Shown here: one piece after another, positions 72 to 62,903 of the stretch
How positions within the stretch are numbered: the first letter of the stretch is position 1
How the letters are laid out: each line of letters starts with the position of its first letter
Assembly (NCBI GenBank): GCA_021030905.1
Contig: JAGFMI010000016.1
Coordinates: 1-64,000 of the forward strand
Origin: Pyrenula massariospora
Taxonomy: Eukaryota; Ascomycota; Eurotiomycetes; Pyrenulales; Pyrenulaceae
Reading direction: 5' to 3'
DNA length: 64,000 nt
Program-made: the position numbers and the translations under genes
Notes under the pieces: generated by a model
What the model was told of the DNA's origin: nothing
Database searches by the model: none
What the model saw: only the letters and a program-made list of their open reading frames with translations

Positions 72-600
72 GGTTTGCTGGTGTTGGTTGGATGGGCTGG
101 TCAGGGATGTGCTAGGTAAGGTGGGTGGGTGTATTCGTGGAGATTTGAAGGTTGTGAGTAGGGAGGCTTGGCATGGGTTGTCTGTGAGTATTTCTTGGCA
201 AGAGAGGAGATATTAGACCGACAAGTTGAGAGGAAATGCTATCTCATTTAGGGGCGGGGAATTAGGGTTGTCACGACCGGCGGTAAGCTGTGGGCTGAAA
301 GCTGGAAAGAGCTTGGATCGACGCAGGCCATGGGATCTGGAGGGAGCTGTGGAGTCTCTCTAAGGCTAGGTAGGTTTTTCGATGTTCTGTGAGGACACGC
401 TAGGCGTATAGTAGTAGAATGGATGAATTGCGGCTCCATGTAATACACAAGGTCGGGTTGCGGGCAAGCACTAAGTCTTCAGGACAACCCGTCTCGTGAA
501 GCTTATCTCTTATTCTTCAAGAATACTTTCAGAACCTAGAGACAGGCACTCCTATCACAGCTCGATCGAGAAGTAGGCCCCCCTATCATCCGTCGCCCCT
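72..600. other. gene-free stretch
   Basis: I see no supported gene. The first half is rather G-rich on the plus strand. The C-rich half of the first skew island begins near 580 and runs into the dienelactone hydrolase gene. Confidence 0.5.
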
Positions 601-1482
601 TCACAAAAACCGCTTAAACCACTCCACCGCCTGCCCCTCCGCCTCCACCTCCGCCGCACTCCCCTCCTTACTCTCCGGACTCGCCCTTACCGCAAACCCA
701 TGCCGCGCCCCCTCATACACCCGAAATTCCCAATGATACCCCCCTTCCCCATCCCCCTTCCCCACCTTCTCCCTCACCACCGCCTCCACCTCCTCAACCT
801 GCTTCTTCGGAAACGCCATGTCGTTGTCCCCGATCGCCAGGCTATAGGGGACTTTGTATTTGCTGACCGCGTCTGCGACCATGGTTGTTGCAGGGCTCAT
901 GGCACTGGGGTGCGCGGTGAACTGCGCGTCGATGAGGCGCGAGGTGCCGTTTTCGACGGAGGGGTGGGCGCACAGCGCTGTACTGAGGTAGCCGCCCCAG
1001 CAGAAGCCGGCAACCCCCAGTTTTGCGGTTGGAGGGAGGGAGGCTTTGACGCCGCGCGCGTAGGCGAGGACTTGGGGGAGGTGCTTCTTGGGGGCGTGGA
1101 GGAGGAGGAAGGGGAGGAAGTAGCGGAAGACGGTGAGGATGGCGAAGAGGCGTTTGAGTTGGGCGAGTGGGTTCCAGGGGTTCGGTGGGGATGTGTAGAT
1201 GGTATCGATGGTGTAGAGGAGGGACGGGGGACACCAGGCGGGGCCGAGGAGGTCGGGGAGGAGGACGGTGTGGGTGGTGCGGGCGGCGTAGGCGTCGGCG
1301 AGGAGGAGGTTGTTTTGGAGGCGCGGACCGAAGGCGTCGCAGATGAAGATGATCGTGCTGCCTGAGGCGGAGGGGGTTGGGGATTTAGCGACGTAGGTGC
1401 GAGTTCCTGCTGTGGTGGTCCAGGTACCGGTTGGGGAGGCGTGGTCGTGGACGGAGCCGCGGAAACAGTCAGGACAGGACAT
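601..1482 (-). CDS. dienelactone hydrolase family protein
   Basis: This is a single-exon alpha/beta hydrolase of 293 aa, close to the usual 240-300 aa of the family. The nucleophile elbow GFCWGG near residue 160 carries the catalytic Cys. The Asp follows in IGDNDMAF and the His in GARHGFA near the C-terminus, completing the Cys-Asp-His triad of dienelactone hydrolases. Family members cleave lactone or ester bonds, classically in chloroaromatic breakdown; the substrate of the fungal cytosolic paralogues is usually unknown. The ATG at 1482 is the first in frame. The gene diverges from the methionine sulfoxide reductase gene across about 550 bases. Oddity: the coding strand uses mainly C-ending codons up to about base 850 and then mainly G-ending codons to the stop, an abrupt mid-gene change. 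Confidence 0.9.
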   Translation of the reverse strand: MSCPDCFRGSVHDHASPTGTWTTTAGTRTYVAKSPTPSASGSTIIFICDAFGPRLQNNLLLADAYAARTTHTVLLPDLLGPAWCPPSLLYTIDTIYTSPPNPWNPLAQLKRLFAILTVFRYFLPFLLLHAPKKHLPQVLAYARGVKASLPPTAKLGVAGFCWGGYLSTALCAHPSVENGTSRLIDAQFTAHPSAMSPATTMVADAVSKYKVPYSLAIGDNDMAFPKKQVEEVEAVVREKVGKGDGEGGYHWEFRVYEGARHGFAVRASPESKEGSAAEVEAEGQAVEWFKRFL

Positions 1483-2033
1483 GGTTGTAGAGTGTTGGGT
1501 AGAGAAGACGGCGAAGAGGGTCGGAGGGTTTTGAATAAGGACGATTGAGGAACGAGCAGGTTAAGATTTTCCGGGTGGAATTTGGGAGACTGTCAAGATG
1601 AAGGGAGCCTGTTGATATACCACCGATATTAGAATTTTTAGCCCCAGCAAACGAAGCAGCGCCACACGAAGTGCTTGCCCCAAATGAGGCCCCAAGATGC
1701 GAAACCTGAGCTTCTGCAAGAGATGGCGGCGATAAGCGGAGTTAGAGAGCTTGCCGCAAGGGCCTCGGCAAGAGTTGCCGGAGGACGGCCGAGCACGCGA
1801 GCTTGAAACCTCAGCACCAAGAGCAAGAAACAGTGGATCGTAGCAGAGATGGAAAATAGATATTGCTCCTGACCTTGGTCTTATACGTCCTACTCACTTC
1901 TAGTTCCAGTAAAGCTTCGGTGCACTGGTTGAACCGTCGGGCTCCGATCTAACAATGCATTACTACTGGTCAGCGAGATTGTGAATGCATAAGCTTACTT
2001 ACCCGGGCAGCTTGCAGGTAACATATTCACATC
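1483..2033. promoter_or_regulatory. divergent intergenic promoter region
   Basis: This 551-base gap separates two divergent start codons, so it should hold both promoters. A possible hairpin lies at 1750-1772 (CTTGCCG, 9-base loop, CGGCAAG). I see no confident TATA box or named operator. Confidence 0.5.
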
Positions 2034-2648: not shown

Positions 2649-5209
2649 CCATCGTTTCCGAAAAGAGCACGTGATCGATATGGGGCTTTGGTGGCGGGGA
2701 GTTGGATCGGCGTTACAGTATGGTAGACGGTGAGACGGCGAGGGCGTGAGCCTCATGATAAGTTCCTCACGGCAAGTTTGTCATGGCAGAGATTTGATCA
2801 CATATTGTAGTGGGCATAATTGCACGAGGCTGTCATTGCAGCTTCACTACGCTCTCCTGCAATGCCAGATCATAAAATGTGCCATCCGACTTGCTATCCA
2901 TATACGCCTCACCTCACCTCACAACATGCTCTAAACCCCCAATCTATCCTTCCTTCCTGCACCCAGATCTAACCCTCTCCACGTCCCCAGACCACCTCCT
3001 TCCTCCAGGCGCCTCATCCCCAACATCTCATATGGCAAGCAAAGGCACCATGGAACGCACAAGCCAACAGCAGCCGATCAGCCCAGCACTAACATTCTAC
3101 CAGCGAGTGCCTGCCTAGCACCAGGTATCCCGTGACAATGAGCCTACCTCAGCCGTCAGGGTAGCATGACGTGTGGCTTAATGTTGCCAGTGCCCTACCA
3201 TACGGGGCGAGAGCTCGCTCTGTGGGGAAAGAGACGGAGCGTGGGAGGAGGGAGGCTGTGCAGAGAGAGTTATAGCAGCGGACTCGGAGGGGAAAGCACC
3301 TAGGTACCTGGCGTTGGGAGTTGCGGTGGGGATGGGGAATGCTGGCACTAGAGGGAGGTTAGGACGGGTTATGGTTGGGTTCGTGGTGCGTTGGCTTGGA
3401 TGAGAATTGCTTTGAATAAGCTGGAGGTCGTATTGGGGAGTTCGGCTGCTTTGACTGTGTTCCTTTGTGGGTCATTCTGGGGGGAGGCTTGGGCTTCGGA
3501 TAAGTTGACTTGCGCATATGACGATCATGGTCAAGGGTGGGGAATAGGTGGTGAGCTCCAAGTGCGTTGGATGGGGTTGGTGTTTTCTCCTGGGTGGCTG
3601 AGGCTGCTGCTTCCAAGAAGCTGGTGAGGCTCTTACCTGTGTCCCGTACATCGTATCCATAGAACGAATTTCTTAAAGTATAATCCCCAATGTCGTTAGG
3701 TTTCAGTGCATCGTCATAGACTGATGCCGTTCTAGCAACCAGTAAGCACCTAACACTCAGTCTAGGCTAGTTCATTCATCGAGAAATAGGCTTCGTGTTC
3801 GCCAGGCTTCTAGATGACTTGCAGAATGTTGTGCTGTGGACCTTAGTATCGTCATAGCGCGGTGTCGAATGTGGCTGTAACGTGCACAAGGTCTCGGTCA
3901 TCGACATTGCATGTTTTCTTTGTCTAGCACCGTAGGATTGAACAGTATCAGTCTTGTTCATCTAGTTCATCTGCAAGTCAAGATTGAAACCAGGCAGTAA
4001 ATGTTCTAAATCAGCATAGCCCATAGTGAAGATAATCCATACTCGCGTGGTAGACTTACTTCCTGTCAGAGCATGATCGGGAAGACGGTACTCTGACCCC
4101 ACGTGCAATTTTGTAGGGAGTAATATCGCGTCATGCTGGAAGTCACGTCATGGGCTCCTGCTTGTCGGTGGAAATGATGCCTCAAAGAACAATAAGAAGT
4201 CTGACTTAGTGGATGACTGAACGAGGCAGTGCCACCTTTAGGGTAGAGCGACTAGTATGGCATGAACCTCATGCTTGACCAGCAATACTGTGATGGTTTT
4301 TGTTGATCTCGAACGGGTCTTTGATCCTCGAGGGCGAAAAATCCACTCTCATTCATAGCGAAAGGCTAGCCTCCACAGATGAGAAAGAAGGCTTAGATCT
4401 TGGATCAGAGGAGGAAGATGCTGGCTCCCGAAGGGGAAGCGAGAGCGAGAACATGACCCACCGGTCCCGGAACTGCGCTTCAAGAAGGTTCATAGGAGTA
4501 GTGAAAGGGGTGGAGACATCGGAGGAATCGAATAGAAGAGGAGTGTTAGGGTGAAGAACGCCGAGGAAGAGTCAACCGATACCATGGTTAACGTGAAGAA
4601 ATGAGCTCAAGAGCAACATCATAACACGGGCCCCTGAGCCCCTAAAGGCTAAGAGAAGAAGTGGAAGTCATGATGCCTGTGCCGTAAAGACGGTGTCTTT
4701 AGCGAGCCCACGATCCTGCGCATCATTAGAGTGAAGTATGGGTAGGTGGGCAAAGGTTCGCCCCAGCCTTGCCTGAGTGTCATTCTAGATAGCGCTTGAA
4801 GTAGAGGATGAAATAAACAGCCTCAAGAGAGCCTTTCTTCCTTCCACACCTTGTCATCCACTTTGCAGAGCTGCTCCTTTGTACCAGGCGTGAATAAAGG
4901 TCAGAAGATTTTGGTGGTGATGTCTTTAGTGTGCTCGTGTGACAGTGGAATCCACCGGACATGAGCCCTCTGGTCGGTCGCTATAAATCCCAGCACCAGG
5001 TCTCCATGAAATGATTCTTTTCTCACTCACCATATCATCATTTCGATCCTCTTTGGTGCTATACGAAACAACAAAACACCTTCTCAGTTCGTGTCAGCCT
5101 GTTGTGGCGGAGTGCAGTCCAGCGCCACGAAATTCGTCTGGCGGGTCTAGGTAGACGCCGACCCCGGCCTAAACCCGTTTAGTGCGGCTGAGCGCGAGCC
5201 TTGGAGAGC
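2649..5209. other. long gene-free stretch with one C-to-G skew island
   Basis: About 2.5 kb without a gene I can support; open frames here are short and have no family features. From 2880 to 3010 the plus strand is C/T-rich (including a short CCTCA tandem). From about 3190 to 3610 it is strongly G-rich. The rest is of average composition. The 5' leader and promoter of the next gene should lie at its right end. Confidence 0.5.
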
Positions 5210-6867
5210 ATGGTGGAGGCACCCGCCCCGCGCCCAACCTCCTCCTGCAAGATGGAAGCGCAGGTAGCAATCAAGGGCAAGAACACCATGTACGTTGCTA
5301 TCTCGATTCTCCATTAAGCCGTTGCCCCCTTTGGTGCCTGGTATGAGCTCGGGTTTGATTTCCTCGAATAGATGTCATCACAGTAAAAATATGCGATTGA
5401 GGCGTTTTTTGAAGAAAGCCAGTTGGTCTTTGTTTCAAATACCCAGCTCAGGGTCAGATAACTCTTACTTTTATCCACATGTCTACCAATCTCATGAGAA
5501 TGACCAGGAGAACTACCCTCGATGATGTTGTCTCCCACGGTCAACTCGCGGATCTATCGGACGAGAAGGCGGTCACTCTATTTGCAGCCCAATTTCCCAC
5601 AGAACTGGAAAGGCTGAAGAATGCGGTCGGTACTATCGAGAGCAGAGACGACAAGAATGAGGCAACTAGAGGCAATTTGAAGAACGAAAGTCAAAAAGAT
5701 CTGTCGCCGAGCCGCTTACTGTATGGTATGGATTATGATGAGCCAAATCGCACACTTCTAAGCTTCTTGGCGTTGAAATGGCTCGTCGCGAGTGACTACG
5801 CAAAATTCTCGCAGTTTCAGCCAAATGTGGTGAAAATCTCCAGAGAGAGCTTCGATCAACTACATGACTTGGCGATGGACACGCTCGACGATACGAATAA
5901 TCTTCGAGCTCTGATTGTCGCTATCGCTGTCGGCGATGTCGGAAAGGACGACAGCCTTGTGGAAACGGTCCAGAAAGCTGGTGGAGAGGTCGAGGACAAG
6001 AACCACGACGAGATCGTTTATCAAGCTGCTGAGTTGGACTTACTTCCAGCGCTCCGCCTGTTAGGGCCTATCACTTCGGAATTGCGCAAAGATGTTGTCG
6101 CCGGTCTCGAGGTTGGTTCTCAAGTCAACATACCCCAACTCGCGCAAGGCGAGAATGTACCAGGCAGTCTCAAGTCCCTCGCTTTGACCATGCGCGGCAG
6201 AACACGGGCCTTCAACATCAAGTTTCTAGAGATCCTCCTCGACGTTGCAGGGGCTGGCGGTCAGAGTGATGCCCGCGCACCTGTTCGCATGATCGAGCCT
6301 GTCTATCAGTCCTTCATGACGGCTCGACAGGCGCTACTAGAGATCGTCAACAAGAGCAGCTCTCCTCGTCAAGCTTATGATTCCGTGCTTTCTCAGCGCG
6401 CCAACGATCTCGCCAAAGCAGGCTTCAGACAACTCTTTGCCGGAGAAGAAGAAGACCGTGCTTTAATGCGACTATTTGCTATGACACGTACAGCAACCAA
6501 GGACCAAGCCGACCTTGTCTCCGACGCTTTTGAAAGTCTACCTACAAGGACTAGAGACGCGCTAGTCGCTGGTCTGAATGTGGATGGGGACGACGACGGG
6601 GATGCTATTCTGCCGTACTATTCCCCAGCCATTTTCGCTGAATGCTTAAAAGCCGTCAAAAAATACGACCGCAATCATCAAATTGCCGCTCTAGCCAGCT
6701 GCATGCGCTTGCTAACGAAAGTGTACGATGGTTCGTCAAAGAAGCCACACCAGGAAGGGCGTGTCATTGAGCGAAGTCTTACGTTTGCGATGGACACAGT
6801 CAAAGATGCCAACTTTGCCAACCGGCCGGAGATTTTGGACAAGGTGAAGTTGCCATGGAAGAAATGA
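5210..6867 (+). CDS. conserved-looking fungal protein of unknown function
   Basis: I do not recognise a characterised family. Exon 2 (5508-6867) is one long frame rich in amphipathic helices with no signal peptide or membrane segment, suggesting an all-helical soluble protein. I infer exon 1 as 5210-5289: an ATG opens MVEAPAPRP and runs to a GTACGT donor after codon AT. An acceptor at 5506-5507 restores the frame as KGKNTM-RTTLDDVV, giving 479 aa. The intron of 218 bases is long for this genome, so the 5' end is less sure; the alternative is an internal ATG at 5479 (462 aa). A central block (residues about 200-280) with MRGRTRAF looks like the best conserved part. The downstream neighbour is convergent. 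Confidence 0.78.
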
Positions 6868-9454
6868 GCTCGGATGGGTGGGCTCAGTTGTATGATTATG
6901 TTTGAACACCATCAGGATTGTTCTGATCTAGAAAGCGCTATTAGTGCTGCGTTCGGGGCCTGCATGCAGCTTGCCTCTCAGTCCTTCACGCACGGTGTCG
7001 TACAAAGTCGAAATATGTGCATGGACATGACTACTAAGGCTTGCTCTCAAGCCTTCCAACGACCACATATTCTCTTACCTGCGCGCAGCAATTATCCACT
7101 TGGAGCTGATGGGGATACTTGAATACATGCTGCCAAACTCCAAGCATCCTCCCAGAAGAAGATTACACGACAACTGAGGCTGACCACTTACCCATCAGCT
7201 TCGCTCAGATCGAAAATCTCGCGCGGAGCCTCTACGCCACATCTGCACTCGGTCCGCAAGCGTAGCCTTTCACAGGCTTTCAAAATCTTACAAATTCTCG
7301 TATGGGGTGTGGCTGCGCAATTTAGAAACGGGCGGGCATCTGACACGCGGCTCTAGCGGGTTCGGATGGATTGGTCTTGGGCAGCAAAGATGGTTCCCAA
7401 TTTAGATAGTTCGGGTTCGGACGTGATACCTAAATATCCAGGCACGTCGAATCTTTACAATTTTTGAGGCGTTATACATTCAGATTGAACCGGCTTCTAC
7501 TGATGAGACTCCACATTGCCAGCACCTACAATGCCTAGATTGGGGCATCGTAAACGGCTGCATCGAGCTTGCCGTCGTCGCTATACAACGCGTGTACTAC
7601 AATGATCTATCTCATCATCATCCGATTTCGTTCTCCTCCAATTCATCTTTACACCCGATTTTATCCTATTCTATCCACCTTTTGATACGAATTCGCTCAA
7701 CCCAACCTAATTTCTCGTACGACCTCATTTCATTTGACCCAACTTCCCACACACGTTTATGCCACTCGATTACTACCCTGCACAGCTTTGTTCTATCTAA
7801 TATACTCCCCTGCACGCCTTTATTTCATCCGATTTGTTATTCCACCCAACTTCATTCCCTCTGATCCGTCTCTGCACAGAACTTCCTTTCCCTCCAACTA
7901 CATCCCATCCGACCCAACTCCAGCCCCCCCAATCTCTACCCAAAACCTACCCAAGCCAAATCTCCTCCCTCATCCCTCCAAAACTCATCAACCTCACCTT
8001 TTCCCCGTCCTGTACTCTTTCCATTCTCCTATCTTTATCCCTATCCCTCTCCCTCATCTCCCTAACCCCCTATGTCCCCTTTCCCCTATCCATCCTCCAC
8101 CCACAAATATCCCATCCCACCGCTTACCCTTCCCAGCCGTCCCCATCCAATGCCCAATCTTTCTTCATTACTCCCTGCTCCTCCCCATACCGCCTCCCTT
8201 TCCAAACCTTCCCCCTCTTCCCGGCCGCGCTCCCCAGTAAAACACGCACAAGGACAAATATTTATACCTGACCTGCCGAATACATCCCCTCTCAATCCCT
8301 GGCTGATTTGGCTCCACACATTTCCGGGGCCGAGTTTGTACGGGGTTAGGAGGAAGGGCGGGGCCGGCGACGGCGACGGCGACGGCGGGAGGTGTGAGGT
8401 CGAGGTGAAGTTGGCGTAGGGGTGGTGGGAAGTTGGGAACAGTGCGAGTCAGGTAGGACATGGGGACAAGATCCAGAAGGGAAAATAACACTCAGACATA
8501 CGGGTGCATCGATTAACACTATCCGCAAACGACGCCTTCAAGCCCTGGCCTCCCGCTTGCTCCTCCCTTGTGTCGAGCTCAAAGCCCCCCTCCCTCCCTA
8601 CCTCTCCTTCTTCCATCGAAAGATCTCTCCCCCCTCCCCCAAATCTCTCCCAGTACTCACCTTCTCCCCCCGCAATCGCCCCCATCCTCCTCCCTCACCC
8701 CCAAACCATCTATCATACCCAGCCCTTCCAGCACAGTCGGGTCGGGGAGCATGCACGCCCTCAGCAACCGCCCTCAGGCAAAAGGTCGAAGCATGCTTGG
8801 CGCGGAGAACTCCCTCCCTGTGTGTGTGTGTAAGCGGCATGAAGTTGAGTTGTACGGTCACGGTGAATGATGCGACCTGCAGGCGGGATGGGGATGGAGA
8901 CTGGAGTTTTTGATTGGGGGAGGGAGGGAAATGGGGATGGACGGGGATTGTTATGGAGGGGCGCGCTGAGGAAATTGAGGGGTGCCGGAGCGAGACGGGG
9001 TAGAGTAGGGAGTACGATGGGGGAGGATAGGATAGGCGCTGGGCTTGGTGGGACCACCTAGGATGTAGAGGGATCGATGAGAGGAGAGGAAAGGGGAAGG
9101 GTATGCGGAAGGTTAGAGAGAGGGTTTACGGCTAACTTGCTGGGTTGGGTATATGGGTAGAGGGTCCACGAGAGGGTGTGGTAGGGGGAAAGGGGGGAAG
9201 GGGGGAAGGTTGTGGATACAGGTGTTGCGGAGAGGTTCCCCATTTTAATCTTAGATCATTGATGTAGATATTTATTATTGCCAGACTTGTCGCAAGAATT
9301 GCAGTAGACGTCGAACATAAAAAGACAAGTCATCTCGGTATCGGTCAAATTATCCATCGACATCAAACACCGCTCATGCCCAACACAACGCCACAGCGCC
9401 TTCGCAAATGATTATACAAAGCCAAGCTCCAATTCCTGGACTGTCTCTTTCTCA
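6868..9454. other. convergent intergenic region with two C-to-G skew islands
   Basis: About 2.6 kb between convergent genes. Bases 7590-8310 are almost pure C/T with A, containing degenerate repeats of a phrase like CATCCGACCCAACTTC. They are followed by a G-rich block at 8320-8480 with (GGCGAC)3 near 8370. A second island is C-rich at 8520-8750 (line 8641-8700 has 34 C and 3 G) and G-rich at 8860-9240 (line 8941-9000 has 31 G and 8 C). A short TG repeat lies at about 8820-8832. Long open frames here come from low-complexity composition and are not genes. Bases 9241-9410 are AT-richer. Confidence 0.55.
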
Positions 9455-11278
9455 TCATCCAACAATACCGTCCCCCGCCCCCCGGACGATCAATCTCTGT
9501 TGCCCCTGCTCCGGACTCCCCTCCACCCCCTGCGTCACGCCTTCATCAGGAACAATACTCGCGCTCCGCCCCTCCCTCCTCCTCAACCCATCCGTCCCCT
9601 GTATGTTCTGCTTCTGCTGTCTCAACCAATCTCTCGCCTCTCTCATCAACTCATTCTTCCGATCAACAGCATCCCAGTTCCAATCCCTCTGCCGCGCGTG
9701 TTGCAACGCGTCATCCAGCCACAAAGCCCAGGCATCCGTTCTCGGTGCCATTCCGCCATCCAGTACCCATTGAACTTGTTGGGTGTGCATGATAGCATAC
9801 CACATGGTCCGGGTGAAAGACGCCTGCTCGCCTTTATCCGCGTTCTTCAAGCGGTCTTCGGTAATATCCACCCAATGGTAGCGTGACATGTCCCAGTGCA
9901 ATGAGCGTGGGACGAGGGCGGCGGCCCAGTACATTCCATTAAGCAGGATGTAAGCGGCCCCGATTGCGGCTTGCATGGTCCATTCGCAGTTACCAAGTAA
10001 GACGACGCCAACCATGAGGAGTAGGGTGCCAACGCCGACGAGGATGCGGTACAATTGCTCATTGACGATGTAGTCACACTTTTCGGTGCCGTGGTAGAGT
10101 TCTCTCGCTATTTCCTCGACACATTCGACGATAATGAACGCGCCCGCGCGAGTCTTGATGACGATGTCGCCATAGGGGACAGGGGCGGAGGTCGTGCGAC
10201 GTGCGAGTTTCGGTTTCCACTGAGAGGCATAGCCGATTATGCTAGAGGCGAAGGACATGATGCCGAGGGCGACGACGGCGACGCCGTCACGGATGAGGCC
10301 GGCCCAGATTAGGAGGCCAATGTTGAGGAGGACAGAGAAGACGGTTAGAAGGTTAAGGGGAGAAAAGCGTTGAGCGGGGATCTGGGGGACTTCGCCAGGG
10401 TCATCTGGTGGAGGAGGTGTGGCCTCCGGTTCTGGATGTCTCAGGAAGGATAGTTTGGAGGTTGTCGAATGGGTGGACAGGCCGGTGTGGTGTTTTCGTA
10501 AAGTCGGTTCGAAAGCGGTAGTTCCGGTACTCGTCGTCTCATCGATTCTTCTTCCGTCTGCTTCTGGTCCTGATCGGGTCGGTGATTGATGGTGGTCTGA
10601 CAATGTAGGCTGTTGAGAAGACGGTTCTTGTCGTTCAGTATCCCCAGATGCTCGGTCCCGCGTGTCTGCCAACTCCAGAGCTTCAATGTGGCTGTGGTCT
10701 CCCTGGTTTAGTTCTGAGCGTCGCGAGGTGTGGCTGTTTCGGCTATTTGGTCTCGGCGTAGGGGCCTGCACTGTGGCTGTTGTTGACTGTACTTGAGTAT
10801 CGACTTCTCCGTTGTGGAATGGTAATTGGACATTCGATGATGGTGTTTGATCTTTTTCATCGTCTTCATCCTTTTCCATAACAGTTGCTAATGTCGCGCT
10901 AATCGAATGCTTCTTTTCCTGTTTCGCTACCGCTTTCTGCTTGTCTGTTGCATAATTGATTCTGATCGCCCTAAACTCATAAGGGGCAACATTTTCCACT
11001 TGATGGATGATGTCGGCGAAATAATTAAGTTCGTCGACTAAAGTGCCCCCATACACTCCCATCACTACCACACCTTTGGCAGTTGGTAGTCGATACGGCC
11101 GAGAGCTTTTGAGGAGGGCTTGTGGAGCTGGTATAAGTCGAGGAAGGCGACACAACCAGGTGGAGGTGAGAGGCTGGGCATGGATCGACATTGAAGATTC
11201 GCCAATAACGGCCAAGAGACCGACGATATCGAAATGCCAGCCCTGGCCATTGTCGCGGCGAGAAGGAAAGAATGGCAT
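9455..11278 (-). CDS. fungal multi-pass membrane protein, unknown function
   Basis: A single-exon protein of 607 aa that I cannot assign to a characterised family. The N-terminal 110 residues look folded. Residues about 115-300 are polar, Ser/Thr/Gln-rich and probably disordered. Two hydrophobic segments follow (about 308-355, starting LNLLTVFSVLL), then a soluble stretch with PYGDIVIKTRAGAFIIVECV. Two more hydrophobic segments lie at about 415-465, and a charged C-terminal tail follows. This pattern suggests an integral membrane protein with four helices and a cytosolic regulatory N-terminus. The ATG at 11278 is the first in frame. The coding strand is C-rich at third positions between about 10440 and 9890 and G-rich from 9850 to the stop, one of the skew-switch genes of this window. 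Confidence 0.8.
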   Translation of the reverse strand: MPFFPSRRDNGQGWHFDIVGLLAVIGESSMSIHAQPLTSTWLCRLPRLIPAPQALLKSSRPYRLPTAKGVVVMGVYGGTLVDELNYFADIIHQVENVAPYEFRAIRINYATDKQKAVAKQEKKHSISATLATVMEKDEDDEKDQTPSSNVQLPFHNGEVDTQVQSTTATVQAPTPRPNSRNSHTSRRSELNQGDHSHIEALELADTRDRASGDTERQEPSSQQPTLSDHHQSPTRSGPEADGRRIDETTSTGTTAFEPTLRKHHTGLSTHSTTSKLSFLRHPEPEATPPPPDDPGEVPQIPAQRFSPLNLLTVFSVLLNIGLLIWAGLIRDGVAVVALGIMSFASSIIGYASQWKPKLARRTTSAPVPYGDIVIKTRAGAFIIVECVEEIARELYHGTEKCDYIVNEQLYRILVGVGTLLLMVGVVLLGNCEWTMQAAIGAAYILLNGMYWAAALVPRSLHWDMSRYHWVDITEDRLKNADKGEQASFTRTMWYAIMHTQQVQWVLDGGMAPRTDAWALWLDDALQHARQRDWNWDAVDRKNELMREARDWLRQQKQNIQGTDGLRRREGRSASIVPDEGVTQGVEGSPEQGQQRLIVRGAGDGIVG

Positions 11279-15551: not shown

Positions 15552-15565
15552 TCGGAGCGCTCCGA
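15552..15565. promoter_or_regulatory. perfect palindrome with inverted CGG triplets
   Basis: TCGGAGCGCTCCGA is a perfect 14-base palindrome holding CGG and CCG six bases apart. That spacing is the one bound by Ppr1-type Zn(II)2Cys6 dimers. It sits in gene-free DNA more than 1 kb from any confident start codon, so function is doubtful. Confidence 0.25.
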
Positions 15566-16461: not shown

Positions 16462-16614
16462 GGCGGGACAAGCGCCATCACATTCAATACAGCTCAGACT
16501 TTCTTGGAGCGTTGCTCAACTGCACCTCCATCAACGACGCTGATATTGCGGTGTGATTGACCTTGGACAGAGTATGAATCACTCGATAGGCCACTGAGTT
16601 TGATCAGACGTCTC

Positions 16615-50947: not shown

Positions 50948-51902
50948 GAAGGGACGGAATAGGGAGGTCATCTCAGGGAGAAATTTACAGGTGGAAGAGA
51001 GGCAAGTAGGGCGCTGCGCCGCTGAAGGCGTTTATATGTGAGATGAGGAGAGAAGATGGTGAATACTGAAAGATACCCAAAAGTAATCCAATGCAATGCA
51101 ATGCATAGCATTGCCATTCTGCCACATAAGTAGGTACCTACCAACCAACCAACCAACCTCATCCTTTTATCATACATTCCTGCCGCTTACCTCCTTACCC
51201 ATCGACCTATCCTATCCCTACCCCACCAACTCATGATTATCAAAACCCCCTTCTCTCCCGAGACCACAATTCGATTCAATTCGGTTCACCTTTTTTCCTG
51301 CCATCAATCGCAGACTAGAACCGCGCACGGGCCAGCGAAAACTTATAGCGCTCCTTTGGCTGTCGGGAACCGCGGCTCATGAAAGCTTAAACTTTTTGCG
51401 TATACCATGATCTAGAAAACAGAAAGATTCGAAGAAGGAATTCCTTAAGGTGATGATTCCGCTGAAATATGCTCGACCACCTCCTTGAGTGAATCTCAAT
51501 CAAACACGTTGACGGCTCATTAAAACCTGGTTGTAGATATCTGCATCCAATGGATCCCTTGTGCCGAGATTTTATAGTTCGTAAAACTGCATTCACCTTG
51601 TCCCACAAGAGTCCCAATGGTGCAATCAAGTATCGCCGACGTGGGGGGACGATAGGCTGAAACCAAGCCACAGAGCCGCATCCTGTTGCTAACAATGCAG
51701 GAGAAACAAGGCTACTGGCCTGCCCACATGATGATCCGTAATCGAGCACGAGTGTTCTATACCTCAGCATACTACCCCGAGCACGCCAGCTCTATGAATG
51801 AACAGGATACAGTCAAAAGTCTATAGCCGACCTTTAGATACCATGTACTAAAATCATTCTCCGTTATCCGGGCGCTTGTTTCAGCGCTCCAGCCAAATCA
51901 TC
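50948..51902. other. gene-free stretch upstream of the 717-aa protein gene
   Basis: Short tandem words occur near 51090-51115 (ATGCA repeats forming a palindromic patch) and 51140-51160 (CCAA repeated five times). The right end should contain the promoter of the next plus-strand gene. No gene is seen. Confidence 0.4.
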
Positions 51903-54056
51903 ATGGCATCAGACAAAGTCGCAACTTTTCTTGTGCCGTTGGTGATCTCTCTCGTCGCGCTCTTTGTGTCGTTCACTCAATTGTTCTTGTCACTGTTTGG
52001 AACAGCGCAGGAGTATCGTCGAGCTCACTGGCAGATTATCGGTCCTTTTGCGCTGACTCGGAAGCGCAAACTCCGGTTCCTGGAGCTGCGATTGGAGACG
52101 AGGTTTTGCACGCCTCATATACGATTCGTCGAAACAGATAGCCACGGTAGACCCCAGAAAAAGGCCGACGTTGCGAACTGGAAAATAAACGACCCGAATG
52201 ATGAAAGCGAAGGTGAAGCTGACACCGATTTGCATGTAATTAAAGCTAAAGACAATGACGACGTCCATTGGTGGGATGCAAGCTATCCAGAGAAGGATAT
52301 AGAAGACTGGATTAGAAAAGATGGGGATAGAAAGGTCAGCAAATTGGTAAAGTTCAAGGAGTTTCCTGTGCCTCCAAGATCCACAAGCAAAAGGAAGCCC
52401 CATGCTTTGAGAGCCAGTTGGCTAAACTTTTTAAGTCGCCTCTACTATCATGAAACTCTCTTTCAGTCCATTACGGCGAAGCTGGAAGACTGGAAGTACA
52501 GCTTAGAGCTGTTCGGTGATCCCGAAGAAAGGCGACTACAGCAAGAACGGGTCCAGCCTATGCGCCGACCCGCGATCAGATCTATCAAGTGGACATGGGA
52601 CCTGCTCCCGCCGGATGTTGTACGACCTTTGGCGTCCATCAGTCTCGGTGATCTGCTTGTGTATTGCTTTCGACTGCGAATACGTGTCACTAAATTAGAG
52701 CCTGCTCAACGCCAATTTGAAGCCGATGGATATGGCCATAATTTCTCCCCTCTCAACGTTCAAGGTGTCGGACTTGTTTTGCAGTATCGCTTCGACCAGA
52801 CCAAAAAGCTCGGCCCTAAAGAGTGCCCTGCAAAACCAACCTTTATTCCGTCGATGGCAACGGACAAAATGGCGTTTGGCCTAATCCCGGAATATGAGTA
52901 CCTTGGCTTCAAAAATCATTGGGACATAGGAGGGGACGTTTATCTGGACTCGATCAAAACCCTCTTCAAAAAGCTCGGTGTTTCGGAGAAAGTTTGCGAC
53001 AATGTCTTGGGAAGGGAGCGAGATCCTGGCAAAAATGATTTGCTCGAGGTTGCAGCAGAGGCGCCACGACTATTATCGCCATTCATGGGTGTCGACACTG
53101 GTGATAAAGGCTTAGGAATCGTCAAATATCGACCTGCAACACGTCACAAGCATGACGGTGTTTTTGTGTGGCTTGAAAGTCGCCTCGTATTTTACGACAG
53201 CCTTCAAAATCTCCACCCAAAGCCCGCAACTACAGCTGTTGATCTTCCACCAGCAAAGAATGATTCAGACGAATACAAAACCTCACATACGCATTGGGTA
53301 CATGATATTTTCGACTTTTTCGTACGTGAATATAAGTCGGAGTTCCTATGTGACTGGTATTGGGCCAATTTCCGGTCACTTTTCTACCTAAATGCGTCGA
53401 AGAGCCCCGCCAAACGTTGCCTAATACAGCTAAGAAAAGCGTTGTTTGAGGCAGATGAATACCTCCATAATTTACAGAAGGAATGGCCGGGATTTAACTA
53501 CAAAGACCTAGTTAGTGCACATCTAGAGATGGCCTTGTTGGAGCATGAGGAAATGAGGATCCACGCGAAAGATTCCAAAGGCAAAGAGGCACATGATCCT
53601 CGGCTAAACGATTATGATATTAAATCCCCGAAATTGGACAAGTTTAAAGTGGAGCTTGCACGCCGCTACGTTGATAAAAGAACAGTTGTGATCAACCAGT
53701 TGCTAACCCGTTGCGCCGAAAGAGAGCAAAGAGAGCAAAGAGCAAAGTCACGGAGGAAAGAAGGAGAAGCAGAGTTCCGGGTCAAGAAATTAGAACGGAT
53801 ACAGAAGAACTACGGAGCCGGCGGCCAGGCCAGAAGAGGAGAGTCGACTGCTGCGACACGGTATGCGCCAACTGAAGCAGACCGGGAAGAATGGGAAGGA
53901 TGGGACGAATCCACGAAAAGAGAGAAACTTGACGCGGCATGGTGGACGATGATGCTCCGTGGAGTCTTATGGGAGCTGGCCCACTTCCCGGTCCTCACTT
54001 TCAATTTCTTCCCATCACGGTACTGGAAGAACAATGCTCAGGTCTACATTGTTTGA
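51903..54056 (+). CDS. fungal single-helix membrane-anchored protein, unknown function
   Basis: A single exon of 717 aa from the first in-frame ATG (51903, MASDKVATF). Residues about 7-33 form one strong membrane helix (FLVPLVISLVALFVSFTQLF), then a basic stretch (ALTRKRKLRFLELRLETRF) and a large soluble region. Near the C-terminus is a highly charged Glu/Arg coiled-coil-like run (residues about 610-645, EREQREQRAKSRRKEGEAE). It ends with a second, weaker hydrophobic patch FPVLTFNFFPSRYW. The opening helix followed by a TRKRKLRF-type motif reminds me of fungal proteins annotated as modin, but this is weak and function is unknown there too. No enzyme motif is seen. Codon use is ordinary and lacks the skew switch. 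Confidence 0.75.
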   Translation: MASDKVATFLVPLVISLVALFVSFTQLFLSLFGTAQEYRRAHWQIIGPFALTRKRKLRFLELRLETRFCTPHIRFVETDSHGRPQKKADVANWKINDPNDESEGEADTDLHVIKAKDNDDVHWWDASYPEKDIEDWIRKDGDRKVSKLVKFKEFPVPPRSTSKRKPHALRASWLNFLSRLYYHETLFQSITAKLEDWKYSLELFGDPEERRLQQERVQPMRRPAIRSIKWTWDLLPPDVVRPLASISLGDLLVYCFRLRIRVTKLEPAQRQFEADGYGHNFSPLNVQGVGLVLQYRFDQTKKLGPKECPAKPTFIPSMATDKMAFGLIPEYEYLGFKNHWDIGGDVYLDSIKTLFKKLGVSEKVCDNVLGRERDPGKNDLLEVAAEAPRLLSPFMGVDTGDKGLGIVKYRPATRHKHDGVFVWLESRLVFYDSLQNLHPKPATTAVDLPPAKNDSDEYKTSHTHWVHDIFDFFVREYKSEFLCDWYWANFRSLFYLNASKSPAKRCLIQLRKALFEADEYLHNLQKEWPGFNYKDLVSAHLEMALLEHEEMRIHAKDSKGKEAHDPRLNDYDIKSPKLDKFKVELARRYVDKRTVVINQLLTRCAEREQREQRAKSRRKEGEAEFRVKKLERIQKNYGAGGQARRGESTAATRYAPTEADREEWEGWDESTKREKLDAAWWTMMLRGVLWELAHFPVLTFNFFPSRYWKNNAQVYIV

Positions 54057-55826
54057 CTAAACCGCTCGTCTTGTATCGCGTCGACACAAAAGCTAAGGAT
54101 AGACGTGTTACTTAGGCATTGTTCGGATGAGACAGCTGAAGACTATTCACGAGTCACCAGCACGCTAATTCGCAAGAGTTAGCAATATTTGCTTCTTCGA
54201 GCGTGATGTGTTCACGATGTCATACTCTCTCCCTCTTCACATCTCAACGCGATCTCCTCGAAAATAGGCACCACAATTTTCCGCTGGGCCCACGTCAACC
54301 GCTCCTCTTCGCGCCCCGCACACCGTGAATTCATCAAAAACAGCTGCTTTGTGTCCGAATGCAATGAATCCGCTAGTCGGAGCTGCAGCAAGCCCTCTCC
54401 CACATTTGTCTCCACGGCTCATAATGCGCAGCTCAATATGCTCTGGCTCAAGCCGAGCTTACGACTGTCAAGGAAAGACCAGCCCTCAAATCCCCTACCC
54501 GGCCGCCAACAAAAGACGGGCTCCATTTCGAAGTACGGTTTACAATTTACTCTAAGCGCTTACACCTCTGTCACGTCATGCCACCCACTTGAATAAAATT
54601 GGTCAGATCCCGATCAAACGACGTTAGAAGCCCTGCTCCCCGCCAGTGTTGCACGATCTCAGCCTCATTCAGGCGTGCAGCGGCATCATAGCATTGACTA
54701 CCGCTGTCATCCCGTCTCGTACATCACTCATCTCGTCCATAATTCCATCCCGGCCCCCCACGCTGCGCCGTCAGCCTTACCACATCCCTCCAAAACCAGC
54801 TAGCTATACACCTCTCATCTCCCATCTTGTCCTGTCCTGTCCCACGTCACGTCTCCAACATTTCTCCGCAGATCAGATCAGATCAGATCTATCGCTCATC
54901 TCAACTAACTACCTATCTATGCATCCAGATCGAGACGTTACGTACGCATCCCGACCCCGCGCTGGCGTGTTTGTCAATGGATTGCTTCACCGGTTCTTAT
55001 GTTACATCATAGATGATGATGAAGATGAGATGAGATGGTTGGCAGACAAGACAACTTGGCGTATCTAGAAGTGAGGTGTTGAAGATTTAGTGGGGATTAG
55101 CGTCTTGAGTAAAGATGGGGGGGGGGAATGGGGAGAGGCATTCGGGATCTGGGAGGGGCGATGAGAAACTTGGGGCAGGGGTAAGGGGAGAGGAGAAGTG
55201 CAAAGACAGTGGCTAATCAACGAGAGCAGACGGGCGGGTAAGGGAAGGGGTTTTCGAAGGGAATACGTTGTAGGATATCGAAACCTCTCAAATTGGGATG
55301 TCTTAACGTGCCGGCCCCCCTCCCCCCCGGCTATGCGTGATTCTACGCGGAAATAGCAGTATAGAGACCGTACGCCCCGCTCTCAAATGTTAGATAGATT
55401 CCTTGCGCCGTTAACCTTTAGGCGAGAGAAAATAGGACGGGATGGAGGAAAAGAAATAGTTGTTCCGCGCAACGTAGAGCGAGGCTTCTGAAGATTGCTC
55501 AGAATAAAGCCTGCATTAGTGAGGTGAGATGAGAAGCGACCTATGCAGAATATGGGTTAAACCAAAGAAGAAAAGAAGAGGAAGACAAAAATGCGAATCC
55601 ATTTTTTTGCCAAAAGTCTATATACCATGCCATACCATGCCCCGTGGTGTGTGCCCAATCAGCCAAGGCCGACATGGTACCTATGACGGACATATTGATC
55701 CTCACATGCGCCGATACAATGTTAACAAAGATAGAAATATGCGAATCGACTGCGATGAACAAATCGGACCAGAGGTCGGTTCATCCAGGCTTTTGTATCA
55801 GCTCAGCAACTCACGAGCAGCCGGCT
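54057..55826. other. convergent intergenic region with a C-to-G skew island and G-runs
   Basis: Bases 54640-54900 are C/T-rich and 55080-55270 strongly G-rich. They include a run of nine or ten G near 55118 and many GGGG words, then a run of C (CCCCCCTCCCCCCC) near 55315. G-quadruplex folding is possible on both strands. Short tandem repeats occur: GTCCT near 54827, ATCAG four times near 54868-54888, and GATGA words near 55011. No gene is supported; the open frame at 54646-55068 is low-complexity. Confidence 0.5.
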
Positions 55827-57013
55827 CTACTCGTTGTAGTGGTACACCTGCCCAATCGCGTTAGCCAATAATATCCTCATGTAGCGCCTGGAAGGGAAGA
55901 ACTTACAAAATAATTCGGCAGGCCCCAACACTCGTACCCCAGCCGTCTCGCCATCTTCGCAAACCCCTCCGTCTCGAGCAAGTGGTAAAACGCAAAAGGC
56001 GGGAACATGGCCCCGTCACGGTGCACATCCGCCTTGACCATCAACGCCGTTCCGCCCACCCCATCAAGCTTCATGGTCTTCCGCGGATCCCGGCCTTCCC
56101 ATTTATCCGCCATGTGCGCCATCAGGCTACGATAGGTGGCCATCTCATGGTAGCCTTCGAAGAGCACTTCGTCGGGTCCCATCTTGTCGCCCATTTGTTG
56201 CGCCGTCTCGCTGTCGACCCAGCTATTGAAGTCGTAGGCACGAACGTCCATTTTGTTGGTTTCGGTGTTGAGGTAGCGCTGGTAGCAGTTGGGAACGATG
56301 ACGGACTTGTCGTGGGAGGTGAGGTCTTCGATGAGGGAGGGCGGTGTTTCGACGATGTCGGCGTCAAGCCAGAGGACCCAGCTGGTTGCGGGGCCGATGG
56401 TTGTGAAGAGTAAGGAGTTGCGCGCCCGGGACATTGATGAGCGGCGTTTGATTTGGTTTTCCATTTTGTGGCGTTCTTGTTCGTCTTGAGAGATTAATGG
56501 AGGGTCGAAGTCCTGGCGGAGGATGGTGATACTGTTGAAGCGTTGGGATTCCGGTCCGGACTGGGTGGTTTGGATGGACTTTTGTAGAGCTGACGTTGCG
56601 GTGTCGCCGTCTTTATTTTTAGGGATTATGAATCCGATAGATATAAGATCGTGAGGGTAGCTGAGCGTAAGGAGATTGTCCCACCATTCTTGGTAGAAGC
56701 GGGCTAGGGGAGTGAGGATGAGGACTCTTTCACGCTTCTCAACCGAGTGGGCAGAGGCGGTCAAGTTATTGAGCTGATATTGTTTGACTGGAGGAGGCGC
56801 AGGTCGACCATTTTTGAGCGGAGATTGTTTTCGGAAAGCGTTTGTAGGTGGTGAGAGGCTGTTTTCTGCTGCGGTTTCATGTATTCGTTGTCGAGCGACG
56901 CTATCTGCATTGCTTGTAGAGGAAGAGAAGAGGAAGAGTAAAGAGCCGATCGCCAGAACGCCAACAAGTATGATGGTAATGAGGCGATTACCGCCCCGTC
57001 TAGGGACTGCCAT
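55827..57013 (-). CDS. MNN9: GT62 alpha-1,6-mannosyltransferase, Mnn9 type
   Basis: Golgi alpha-mannosyltransferase of the Anp1/Van1/Mnn9 family, a core subunit of mannan polymerase that extends the alpha-1,6 backbone of N-glycans. Exon 1 is 57013-55907. A 59-base intron (55906-55848; GTAAGT, GGCTAAC, GGGCAG) precedes a 21-base last exon giving VYHYNE and the stop, for 375 aa. It is a type II membrane protein: helix at residues about 10-31 (LITIILVGVLAIGSLLFLF), then a short stem. The donor/metal site WLDADIVETP lies near residue 213, followed by VIVPNCYQRY and GVGGTALMVKADVHR. Length and the tail LPNYF-VYHYNE fit Mnn9 better than the longer Van1 or Anp1. The coding strand switches from C-rich to G-rich near 56130. 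Confidence 0.88.
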
Positions 57014-60207: not shown

Positions 60208-61542
60208 GATTAATCTCAAACGTGGGTTATCGAAAATCAAGGTTCATATTTTTGAAGACTGGAGATAGATCATGAACGGCGAGAAAGGTTATCGGCCTCC
60301 TTTATTACAAGCGGTCAACGGGTGATAAGCGGAAGCTTAGGGTTACTAAGGCGAGCCGTCTGCGATCGACACCCACCCAGAACCACGGCTCCTGGTCTTC
60401 CGACCCAGCCACAATTGATCCATGTGGTAAAGCCGTTAAAGGGTCTCGGTGGCTGTGCTCGTCACGCTTCCAACCGGCCTCGTCATCCTGCTAAAAATTT
60501 CCGCGATGGGCAACGATCAGAGTGACCCCTTCAGCAACAGTTTATGCTCACATTTAGCGACGAATGAAAGCGTTTATAGACTCATATGAAGCCTTGCTCG
60601 CTTCGAGCTCGTTACACAATGAATACTTCACATCCGGGAGCCGACCTGCACCGCCACATGGACCTCACATCCTGCCAATCACATTAAACTCGTGATCTGC
60701 AGTCTTGCTTGCGGGTTCTTGGTTGTGTTTCTGTCTACCATGGTATTCTCGACACTCGCCACAATCTGTCCTACCTGTGGGTTGCTTGGTAAGTCATGGC
60801 CACGAGATTCGGCAGCCTGAACACTGTCGACAAGGGTAAGCGCCGTTGGAAGTTGGAAGCGTCCAAAGATTCCCTGCAAGCCGTAGATACAACACAACGT
60901 CATTAGGGTTGAGTATCTCTGCAGTCACACTACTCGATGTTGGAGACATTGAAGCCACAGCCTATCAGCCTAATGAAGCCTCTCTCTCTCTCTTTTTCTA
61001 CAAGGCCACTCCGGATGTGACGAAACCCTGCTGGTCTCCGAGGCAAGCTTCTCTACTTCATCACCGTTTATTCTGAGAGCCGATCAGGACCTGGTAGCCT
61101 CCATAACCACTCTCAGTCCGCTACAAGGTTGATGACATATTTTGTAAGAGCCTATAGTCCCAGAGAGCCTAACGATCAGCTCTACATAGATTGTCTACGT
61201 CGAATCTTCACTGCAGTGTCCAGACAACATCACAAGAAAAGAAAGCGAGAATCATTTGTCATTTTTGAACACCTAGAGAATGCCCTTTCCACGGTCACCA
61301 ATGCCGCTGCTGGTGGATGCATTTTCCACCTCGTAGATTGGTAAAAAGAGCAAGCCGCCGTCGTAAGATTCTAGTTCATATCTCCTATCGTCTGCAAATG
61401 CTAAACAAAGTTTTCCAGTCCAATGCTCCAGACGGCCCCCTCAAGATGCGGTCGATTTTGAAAATACACTTTGTTGATCATTGGGATAAAGAACGCCAAC
61501 GCGCCGTCATACCATGTCGTGATATAGTTCCCTCTCTTCTCC
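60208..61542. promoter_or_regulatory. SREBP promoter region and gene-free DNA
   Basis: GGGTGAT at 60320-60326, about 115 bases before the SREBP start, matches the core of the reverse complement of the fungal sterol regulatory element ATCACCCCAC at seven of ten positions. A (TC) run lies near 60980. The far right end is the 3' flank of the next minus-strand gene. No gene is supported. Confidence 0.45.
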
Positions 61543-62903
61543 TCATCTCCTCCCCAGCAATTCTCTTCCGCCAATCTTCGGGCTACCCGCTCTAACACTA
61601 ATCGAAGCCTCTCCCACCTTCTCCCCTCCTGTCCCACTGTCTACCTTCGGGCTCACAGTAGGGTTACCAGGCGAGCCCACCCCAGCGCCAGCAAGGAAAT
61701 AGTCCCCCTCATCTGAACTCTGTTCAAGAGCCAACGGTGTGACGGGTCCGGGACTCCCCATCGGGTCAAGCCGCGGGGAGCTTGGCTTATGGCCGAAGGG
61801 AGACGCGGCGATGCGGGAGGAGTAGTCGGCTCTAGCGAGGAGCTCCCGTTGGTAGCGGCGCATGGCTTTGGGAGAGTCGGCAACAGCGGCGGAGGCAGAT
61901 GTGCTTGTGGGAGACTGTGGTGGAGGTGTCATGGCCGGGGTTGCGGATTCAAAGCGGGCAGGGTGGTAGCGAGGGAGGGAGCCGAGGCTTGCAGGTTTGA
62001 GCGTGCCAGATTTCTTGGTAGACTGGGGAGAGTGGTGGGAGCGGGGTCTCGTGTGAGTGTTTGGTTGAGCGGCGACGGGGTGAAGGGATGGATTGATCGT
62101 GGGAGATAAAGGGGAGGTCGGCGTGTAATAGGAACCCCGTTCGGTGTGCATCTTTACTGTGAAGGACTGAAAGCGAGGTGAGAGCGAGGAGGCAGTGATC
62201 TGAGAGGTCGCAGGAAGGTCCGGAGACCTAGATGTTGACCTTTGTATGCTTTTGATCTGGACTTGGAAATCGGTACGACGCTCAGGCGGAGAGGGAGAAA
62301 GTCGGAGGGGTGAAATGTCTCGGTAAACGGAAGGAAAGCAATTGCTTCTTCGGTCACCTCTGCCTGAGACAGGTGTGGGAACTCTATTCGGGTCGCGTTG
62401 GTATCGAGGCGTTGTAGGAATCAATATTGGACCTGGCGGGGCATGTCGTGAAGAAACGGCTTTGCCATACCCTTTGAAGGATCTCGGTCAGCATCTGAGG
62501 GGCCATATTACCCAAGATACGTGGGCAGGTTCTCACAAAACGTGGGGAAAATACCGGAATAGCTGCGTGGGCTTAGAGACGAAGTGGATTGGCGTGCGGA
62601 TAGAGGGGAGCCAAGATCTGCGGTTTCGTCGCTTTGTTAGTGGATTTGATCAGCGGTCCGTGAGAGTGATGTTTGGCTGAGACAATTAGGACGGGTGCTA
62701 AGGTCCCTGCAGCGGAAGGTATCTGAAGCCCCCAAGGACGCACAATTGGCGCCACAGGGGAATTTCTGTGGGTTGCCTCGATTTCCTCTGTTGGGAAAGT
62801 GGCAGCGATGTGACGAAAGGTAAAGGGACTGAGATCAAAAGGACTCACTGTATCTGGGAGGTGAAGGTGCTGCGGGTGGCGATGCCATAACAGCCGCCGT
62901 CAT
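61543..62903 (-). CDS. conserved disordered fungal protein, unknown function
   Basis: Two exons give 327 aa. Exon 1 (62903-62849) reads MTAAVMASPPAAPSPPRY. A GTGAGT donor opens a 377-base intron (62848-62472), long for this window, and CTTCAAAG closes it. Exon 2 (62471-61543) continues in frame with YGKAVSSRHAPPGPILIPTT. The protein is Ser/Pro/Arg-rich and mostly disordered. A short block, SLGSLPRYHPARFES, and a helix RRYQRELLARADY followed by SSPRLDPMGSPGPVTPLALE look like the conserved elements. I cannot name a function. The coding strand is C-rich in the middle (62110-61740) and G-rich at the 3' end (61640-61550). A further exon inside the long intron cannot be excluded. Confidence 0.72.

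Follow-up and report, generated by a model that had tools for sequence, protein, structure and literature searches.

Biased base composition around local features has been described in several systems (articles given below with PMC numbers are cited from excerpts). Genes of unicellular fungi have a coding strand biased towards C at the 5' end and towards G at the 3' end, also at fourfold-degenerate and flanking sites, with only a minor change of A and T between the two ends (PMC3315797). GC-biased gene conversion (gBGC) yields local GC peaks that involve synonymous as well as other sites and shift the amino acids (PMC7574485). At human meiotic breaks, mutagenesis in the 2 kb of flanking DNA has a strand asymmetry that is mirrored about a point (Hinch et al. 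2023, PMC7615360), and start sites of plant and fungal genes show a strong local skew of C over G (Fujimori et al. 2005, PMC555766). Here we describe a pattern that is related to each of these: GC-rich islands in which, on the top strand, a C-rich block changes at a sharp centre to a G-rich block. It was found in the first 64,000 nucleotides (the window) of contig JAGFMI010000016.1 of Pyrenula massariospora (assembly GCA_021030905.1). The window is the start of contig C7 in a genome of 37.8 Mb in 33 contigs; the evidence comes from this single genome of one species, and our conclusions are inferred from sequence composition.

The islands share with the fungal gene-end skew its base order, the involvement of fourfold sites and the small change in A and T. 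Unlike that skew, they are discrete and sharp-centred, coincide with GC peaks, are also located between convergent genes and can occur two per gene. In addition, fourfold sites in the islands reach 58% C or 63% G. The gene-end skew correlates negatively with GC content in the excerpted text (PMC3315797). One gradient per gene, tied to the gene ends, is not what we find (though the gene calls are approximate). With gBGC the islands have in common the GC peak and the effect on synonymous and other sites, including shifted amino acids; ordinary gBGC, however, is strand-symmetric and favours G and C over A and T, whereas on the C side of an island G does not gain over A. The mirror symmetry of the human breaks is present as well, but not their loss of C on the strand that points 3' towards the centre: presuming that the centre is the break, this strand is C-rich here (compared with the excerpts of PMC7615360). 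The start-site skew is similarly strong and local, but in the portion consulted it is tied to gene direction and gene starts, and divergent promoters would give the order G-to-C (PMC555766). Replication origins would be expected to show a long-range skew at sparse sites; here the skew spans about 700 bases, with one centre per ~6 kb. Finally, the G-rich coding strand downstream of starts that marks promoters of the mammalian type is not seen, as the first fifth of genes is C-biased. Among the matches listed, the open-licence PMC literature held no report of two-sided C/G islands.

A fixed order of C-rich and G-rich blocks

We segmented the sequence with a three-state hidden Markov model (HMM) consisting of background, C block, and G block as the complement of the C block. 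Training and scan covered 264 kb: the window plus 20 ten-kb stretches out of 22 fetched, three of the 20 adjoining the window. The stretches L009 and L016 (both AT-rich) were excluded, as was L001, which lies inside the window. The HMM yields 112 skewed blocks with median lengths of 318 bases (C) and 342 bases (G). Direct switches run C-to-G in 43 cases against G-to-C in 6 (binomial p 6e-8), which divides into 14 against 3 in the window and 29 against 3 elsewhere. All six G-to-C switches are part of C-G-C chains, i.e. they mark places where islands abut. The other transitions number 47 from background to C, 48 from G to background, 14 from background to G and 9 from C to background; from these counts, the typical object is a unit of background, C block, G block and background. 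With an order-neutral HMM the numbers are 40 C-to-G against 9 G-to-C.

Such an order had been proposed for the window in a preliminary description made from the letters alone. Its example base counts are exact (32 C and 6 G at 601-660, 32 G and 5 C at 1081-1140, 34 C and 3 G at 8641-8700, 31 G and 8 C at 8941-9000). In the window the HMM places direct C-to-G boundaries at 839, 2399, 3154, 8325, 8818, 12636, 17168, 39500, 39784, 41056, 50749, 54958, 56221 and 61735. Twelve of the 13 abrupt switches named before lie within ~100 bases of such a boundary; the remaining one, at 9870, turns out to be gradual (the C block ends at 9768 and the G block begins at 10175), and the boundaries at 2399 and 12636 are additional to the earlier list. 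The G-to-C change near 39660 had been taken for the sole exception inside islands. This needs correction: direct G-to-C boundaries are found at 8481, 39665 and 51074.

Several controls were used. A single dinucleotide shuffle of 260 kb leaves zero blocks. When pieces of 150 bases are shuffled the blocks are kept and the order is lost (C-to-G 21-23, G-to-C 14-22 in four trials), and with pieces of 300 bases, which can hold a whole switch, the order is partly kept (23-28 against 9-12). Plain skew steps, counted in the window with 200-base arms and a threshold of 0.3, are less lopsided (16 C-to-G against 12 G-to-C), and local GC is at least 0.55 at 13 of the 16 C-to-G steps against 4 of the 12 G-to-C steps. 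The correlation between step and GC in the window (r +0.22) was reached by none of 333 circular shifts. Circular shifts and shuffles together rule out chance.

For the complete genome we compared the order of short words, in patterns that are strand-neutral because each word pair is its own reverse complement. At gaps of 300-330 bases, CCTCCC..GGGAGG occurs 818 times against 235 for GGGAGG..CCTCCC, and its backward-read relative CCCTCC..GGAGGG 858 times against 205 for GGAGGG..CCCTCC, with the reservation that the gap was picked after viewing the sample and that adjacent matches overlap, so that these are not counts of independent events. The preliminary description had named equal genome-wide numbers of both orders as an outcome that would speak against it; the numbers are clearly unequal. 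How C-word-then-G-word compares with the reverse order in the sample depends on spacing: the ratio is 0.88 and 0.83 below 65 bases, 1.01 at 65-100, then 1.26, 1.73 and 2.59 up to 300, 3.20 at 300-400, and beyond 400 it decreases over 2.98 and 2.13 to 1.62 at 900-1300. The observation of two-sided C/G islands is thus confirmed.

Base content of the islands and their relation to genes

Pooling of the 43 centres reveals two sides that are mirror images. On the C strand the C fraction is ~0.41-0.44 within 200 bases of the centre and returns to the background level by ~700 bases, where the pooled skew is gone. The GC content is 0.63 at the centre, ~0.53 by 400 bases, where the excess is essentially lost, and 0.50 by 600 (background ~0.50). 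Within 250 bases, C minus G on the C strand amounts to 0.19-0.26 and A minus T to just 0.006-0.024. An AT skew of similar size would be expected if the main cause were deamination of cytosine in single-stranded DNA, which was rejected in that role. Observed/expected dinucleotide ratios in the blocks differ by at most 0.16 from the background, for which reason a context-specific mutagen was rejected as well. No clear motif is present at the centres: among 6-mers with 12 or more occurrences no further than 60 bases from the 43 centres, none is enriched more than 3.5-fold, and those listed mostly contain CG. ARAGORN found no tRNA genes, and tandem repeats were discarded as a cause given only two short arrays in the whole window.

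Synonymous sites were taken from 61 long reading frames (at least 250 codons, picked by length, of which the minority have a confirming family match) and assigned to the C side or the G side according to which strand of a block, the C-rich or the G-rich one, is the coding strand. Fourfold sites in the background (n 10,529) are composed of A.248, C.262, G.220 and T.271. This changes to A.140, C.578, G.141 and T.140 on the C side (n 2,235) and to A.088, C.142, G.626 and T.144 on the G side (n 1,073), where it should be kept in mind that blocks were picked by composition and the effect size is therefore exaggerated. At twofold C/T sites the share of C is.512 in the background,.806 on the C side and.382 on the G side; at twofold A/G sites the share of G is.531,.429 and.859, respectively. 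Hence the GC peak does involve neutral sites, as in classical gBGC (.63 against ~.50, with shifted fourfold sites), but G and C are not both favoured (.429 against.531;.382 against.512). Since C gains over all other bases on one strand while G does not gain over A, strand-symmetric GC-biased conversion does not fit. Essentially one base is gained on one strand, with little AT skew and little dinucleotide context. Codon or amino-acid constraint, the second outcome that the preliminary description had held up against its own claim, is not what we observe, because synonymous positions are strongly affected. Amino acids follow the skew too: in predicted genes with a score of at least 30 (264 kb), proline changes from 5.5% to 10.7% on the C side, and glycine from 6.3% to 13.7% and glutamate from 6.1% to 10.1% on the G side.

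Genes were called with a home-made gene finder using codon use per composition class. It predicted 88 genes and recovered 61 of the 64 training frames (the calls are approximate), and superseded an earlier, too conservative version based on amino acids only (60 genes). A GAF frame at 2115 was missed and added by hand to later masks. Centres lie within predicted genes in 28 of the 43 cases, 14 on the plus and 14 on the minus strand, and the pattern is also present outside predicted genes; the claimed independence of gene direction therefore holds. Island genes with a family match encode a dienelactone hydrolase, an aldehyde dehydrogenase, an Anp1/MNN9 family protein and an NAD kinase on the minus strand, and a GAF protein, a pyridine-nucleotide oxidoreductase and a helicase on the plus strand. 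Within genes, the relative position of the 28 centres is not distinguishable from uniform (mean 0.57, Kolmogorov-Smirnov p 0.24), and two predicted genes each contain two complete islands. Three centres, in 7611-9235 and 54225-55274, are located between convergent predicted genes; three of the four blocks in the former interval and both blocks in the latter are without period-3. Overall, period-3 at p < 0.01 is missing in 53 of the 112 blocks, but given that it is also missing in 311 of 400 background pieces, this is weak evidence of non-coding DNA.

Skew step and GC are correlated both outside (r 0.159) and inside (r 0.329) predicted genes, each value being reached by none of 300 shifts. Outside predicted genes, large steps are C-to-G in 175 of 219 cases in the top GC decile against 14 of 59 in the lower GC half. 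Along the coding strand, the skew rises from the first to the last fifth in 68 of the 84 predicted genes that have 450 or more coding bases. Sites rather than genes are likely the unit of the pattern, though a part of the signal may be gene-linked.

The islands of the window

The first island in the HMM segmentation is found at 578-1607 (C block 578-839, G block 840-1607), has period-3 in both blocks and coincides with a minus-strand dienelactone hydrolase gene at 601-1482 (Pfam DLH, E 4e-14). It is followed by an island at 2122-2750 (switch 2399/2400), mostly inside the plus-strand GAF-domain frame 2115-2645 (Pfam GAF_2, E 1e-14), and one at 2882-3629 (switch 3154/3155) that has neither period-3 nor a predicted gene. 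Upstream of the next islands, positions 5479-6867 encode a full-length member of Pfam DUF6829, a family of unknown function (E 1e-139). Two islands then abut between convergent predicted genes: 7611-8481 (switch 8325/8326), with no period-3 in the C block (p 0.57) but with it in the G block (p 0.005), and 8482-9235 (switch 8818/8819), without period-3 (p 0.85 and 0.43). Within the former, 7880-8240 consists of 50% C and 5% G. The gradual change around 9870 corresponds to a weak C block at 9354-9768 and a G block at 10175-10492, separated by about 400 background bases, at a minus-strand open reading frame (ORF) of 9455-11278. Further islands are present at 12388-12879 (switch 12636/12637), near the 3' end of the minus-strand NAD kinase gene 12395-14350 (Pfam NAD_kinase), and at 17007-17407 (switch 17168/17169), in a predicted minus-strand gene at 16494-17490. 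Two overlapping frames tested there (16929-17237 plus, 17094-17522 minus) have no Pfam match, and the identity of an RRP46 gene at 17 kb, as proposed before, could not be confirmed.

In the second half of the window, the island at 38707-39665 (switch 39500/39501) overlaps the plus-strand frame 39254-40018 of a pyridine-nucleotide oxidoreductase (Pfam Pyr_redox_2, E 9e-9), and the gene holding its centre contains a second island at 39666-40068 (switch 39784/39785). The island at 40482-41603 (switch 41056/41057) lies in the minus-strand aldehyde dehydrogenase gene 40510-42006 (Pfam Aldedh, E 7e-164), and that at 50578-51074 (switch 50749/50750) at the 3' end of a plus-strand helicase (Pfam Helicase_C in 50426-50944, E 1e-22). 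Between the convergent predicted genes 51903-54056 (plus) and 55827-57013 (minus) an island without period-3 is located at 54225-55274 (switch 54958/54959). The last two are 55923-56858 (switch 56221/56222), in the minus-strand Anp1/MNN9-family gene 55877-57013 (Pfam Anp1, E 2e-110), and 61530-63096 (switch 61735/61736), which lacks period-3 and holds an ORF at 61543-62487 without Pfam match.

From 18571 to 38706, about 20 kb between two island-rich stretches, the HMM assigns no C or G block. Similarly, among the genome-wide word matches listed, contig C1 shows a cluster at 131-237 kb and then a gap up to 471 kb. The islands may be clustered in domains.

Candidate causes and their consequences

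The pattern is probably the product of a site-centred process that acts in two directions. An island would have built up over time from a local DNA transaction that begins at one position and extends a few hundred bases both ways. In it, the strand with its 3' end towards the centre (the top strand on the left, the bottom strand on the right) gains C while losing A, T and G. A gain of C on the centre-facing strands makes the top strand first C-rich and then G-rich, whatever the gene direction. A process spreading both ways from a point had been suggested in the preliminary description; fixed polarity, independence of direction, presence outside predicted genes and mirror-like decay all support it. 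As to its cause, we see roughly even chances that it is the repair of meiotic double-strand breaks at long-lived hotspots. The strand on which C is favoured, with its 3' end at the centre, would be the resected tail if the centre is a meiotic break, and the bias may then be a strand-asymmetric form of biased gene conversion. A local two-way footprint of meiotic break repair with a strand-specific C bias is the best explanation overall, and we would neither bet on it nor against it.

Two schemes would give the right sign: a conversion bias at tail bases, or a change of any base to G on the displaced strand of a D-loop or R-loop. In the first, during synthesis-dependent strand annealing, the 3' tail would pair with newly copied donor DNA; mismatch repair would by default keep the tail, and base-excision enzymes would replace a tail T or A facing G by C. 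T:G mismatches would be handled by an enzyme of the TDG/MBD4 type and A:G mismatches by one of the MutY type. Such replacement would make the tail strand C-rich on both sides, which is the polarity observed, though in this exact form the scheme is improbable.

A footprint size of a few hundred bases, one centre per ~6 kb, a Spo11-family (TP6A_N) match in the genome (locus L024) and stretches resembling the product of repeat-induced point mutation (RIP) are compatible with a sexual fungus having stable hotspots. RIP belongs to the sexual cycle. The two AT-rich stretches look RIP-like, in very extreme form: L009 (G000:C4:1200001-1210000) has 9.2% GC over 10 kb and L016 (G000:C7:500001-510000) has ~6 kb at 9-11% GC. 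TpA/ApT is 1.06 and 1.03 in L009 and L016 against 0.64 in one ordinary stretch (L010), and (CpA+TpG)/(ApC+GpT) 0.81 and 0.91 against 1.33. High recombination in coding sequence has been reported for Zymoseptoria tritici, according to excerpts of that study (PMC5844332).

Several observations, including those on genes given with the first rival below, weigh against a meiotic origin or against its single-base form. The polarity is opposite to that of resected-tail damage in the excerpts of Hinch et al. 2023 (PMC7615360), which disfavours simple mutation of resected ends, so that conversion bias or damage to a displaced strand would be needed. On the C strand, A is more frequent than T by 0.005-0.033 in all bins up to 700 bases, as could result if a minor part of the change were C-to-T on the opposite strand. 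The gain of C alone is approximate: G is less frequent than A at twofold sites and likewise (odds 0.78) in 27 blocks of non-coding-like sequence, whereas fourfold sites show no deficit of G against A. Finally, there is a slight excess of the reverse order (G-then-C) at spacings below 65 bases. With 18-mers at gaps of 30-90 and AT-rich stretches removed, G-rich-then-C-rich pairs number 63 against 33 for the reverse, and at short gaps G-free-then-C-free 18-mers are rarer than the reverse (18 against 42 at 30-60). The midpoints of these reverse pairs are in background DNA in 59 of the 63 cases (median GC 0.46), with 14 of 63 in predicted genes, and long exact words with short gaps show no order contrast. 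We consider this excess a separate feature of background DNA.

The strongest rival is a gene-linked skew (McLean and Tirosh 2011), in which mutation in phases of transcription, or selection, biases the coding strand towards C at the 5' and towards G at the 3' end. As C-then-G is its own reverse complement, such a skew gives one top-strand order for genes in both directions, and special sites are not needed. It is seen in most unicellular fungi and extends to promoters and 3' UTRs, as far as the excerpts go (PMC3315797). In our data the coding-strand skew of island genes rises from -0.197 in the first fifth to +0.308 in the last (32 of 34 rise), and in island-free genes it still increases from -0.037 to +0.090 (36 of 50, p 3e-5), with the same sign as in unicellular fungi. 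Gene spans hold more centres than expected (29 of 43 including the GAF frame, against 44.5% of bases, p 0.003). Moreover, period-3 at p < 0.01 is found in 59 of the 112 blocks against 89 of 400 random background pieces, showing that islands are richer than average in coding sequence. Between convergent genes, however, a gene-linked skew predicts G-then-C, whereas the islands at 7611-9235 and 54225-55274 are C-to-G, although just three centres in two intervals are so placed and genes there may have been missed. Neither the two complete islands in each of two predicted genes, nor the skew-GC relation outside predicted genes, nor a position of centres within genes that is indistinguishable from uniform is expected from it, and the islands follow GC peaks whereas the GC skew of the fungal genes correlates negatively with GC content in the excerpted text (PMC3315797). 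It accounts for part of the data, namely the weak gradient in island-free genes; as the explanation of the islands we think it unlikely.

Less likely again is mutation in place of conversion. Here a displaced strand (in D-loops, R-loops or divergent transcription bubbles) leaves the top strand on the right and the bottom strand on the left unpaired; lost bases would be bypassed by Rev1-type insertion of C opposite, turning any base into G on the displaced strand. At fourfold sites, C on the partner strand indeed gains over A, G and T by similar factors, as expected from insertion without base choice, and little context preference is seen. Against this mechanism, DNA damage does not normally turn three different bases into abasic sites at equal rates. 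In yeast, mutagenesis of single strands at breaks depends on Pol zeta and likewise on Rev1 (PMC2577886, excerpts), but the translesion signature of human hotspots has the other polarity in the excerpts of PMC7615360.

Replication initiation sites with a leading-strand G bias are very unlikely. The polarity agrees with the familiar C-to-G switch of bacterial origins, but a replication skew should extend over many kilobases and need not raise GC, whereas the pooled skew is about zero beyond ~700 bases; 43 centres in 264 kb are, moreover, far denser than the usual spacing of origins. Still less credible is a skew of promoter or CpG-island type at divergent start sites. Slight start-site skews of the opposite, G-over-C sign are present in human and Drosophila genes (PMC555766, excerpts), but the first fifth of the genes studied here has a coding strand biased towards C. 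C-biased divergent starts would give G-to-C, an order also expected from the C-over-G skew that the same excerpts describe in plants and in some fungi, and centres are found inside genes and between convergent genes (starts being deduced from predicted genes). A codon, amino-acid or low-complexity effect, or chance, can be dismissed almost entirely: proline and glycine do rise as given above, but the synonymous skew is strong, 53 blocks lack period-3, the window has two tandem arrays and a dinucleotide shuffle leaves no blocks.

Meiotic break repair with a C bias can be put in a more specific form, namely conversion of a single base on a single strand: repair at thousands of stable break sites (a number extrapolated to the genome from the 43 centres in 264 kb) would favour essentially only C, on the 3'-tail strand. 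We regard this as possible but rather doubtful. If true, one genome sequence would record the position of the break (the C-to-G switch) together with the reach of heteroduplex on each side, and the fungal gene-end skew would be the blurred average of the island footprint. If the centres are breaks, hotspots and heteroduplex lengths would become readable in species without a cross or a map, and the strand carrying the repair bias could be inferred. A gain of one base on one strand over the three others lies outside the predictions of standard GC-biased conversion, and it is strong enough that proline in the encoded proteins is roughly doubled on one side and glycine on the other. The islands also provide a different explanation, open to test, for the GC skew at the ends of fungal genes.

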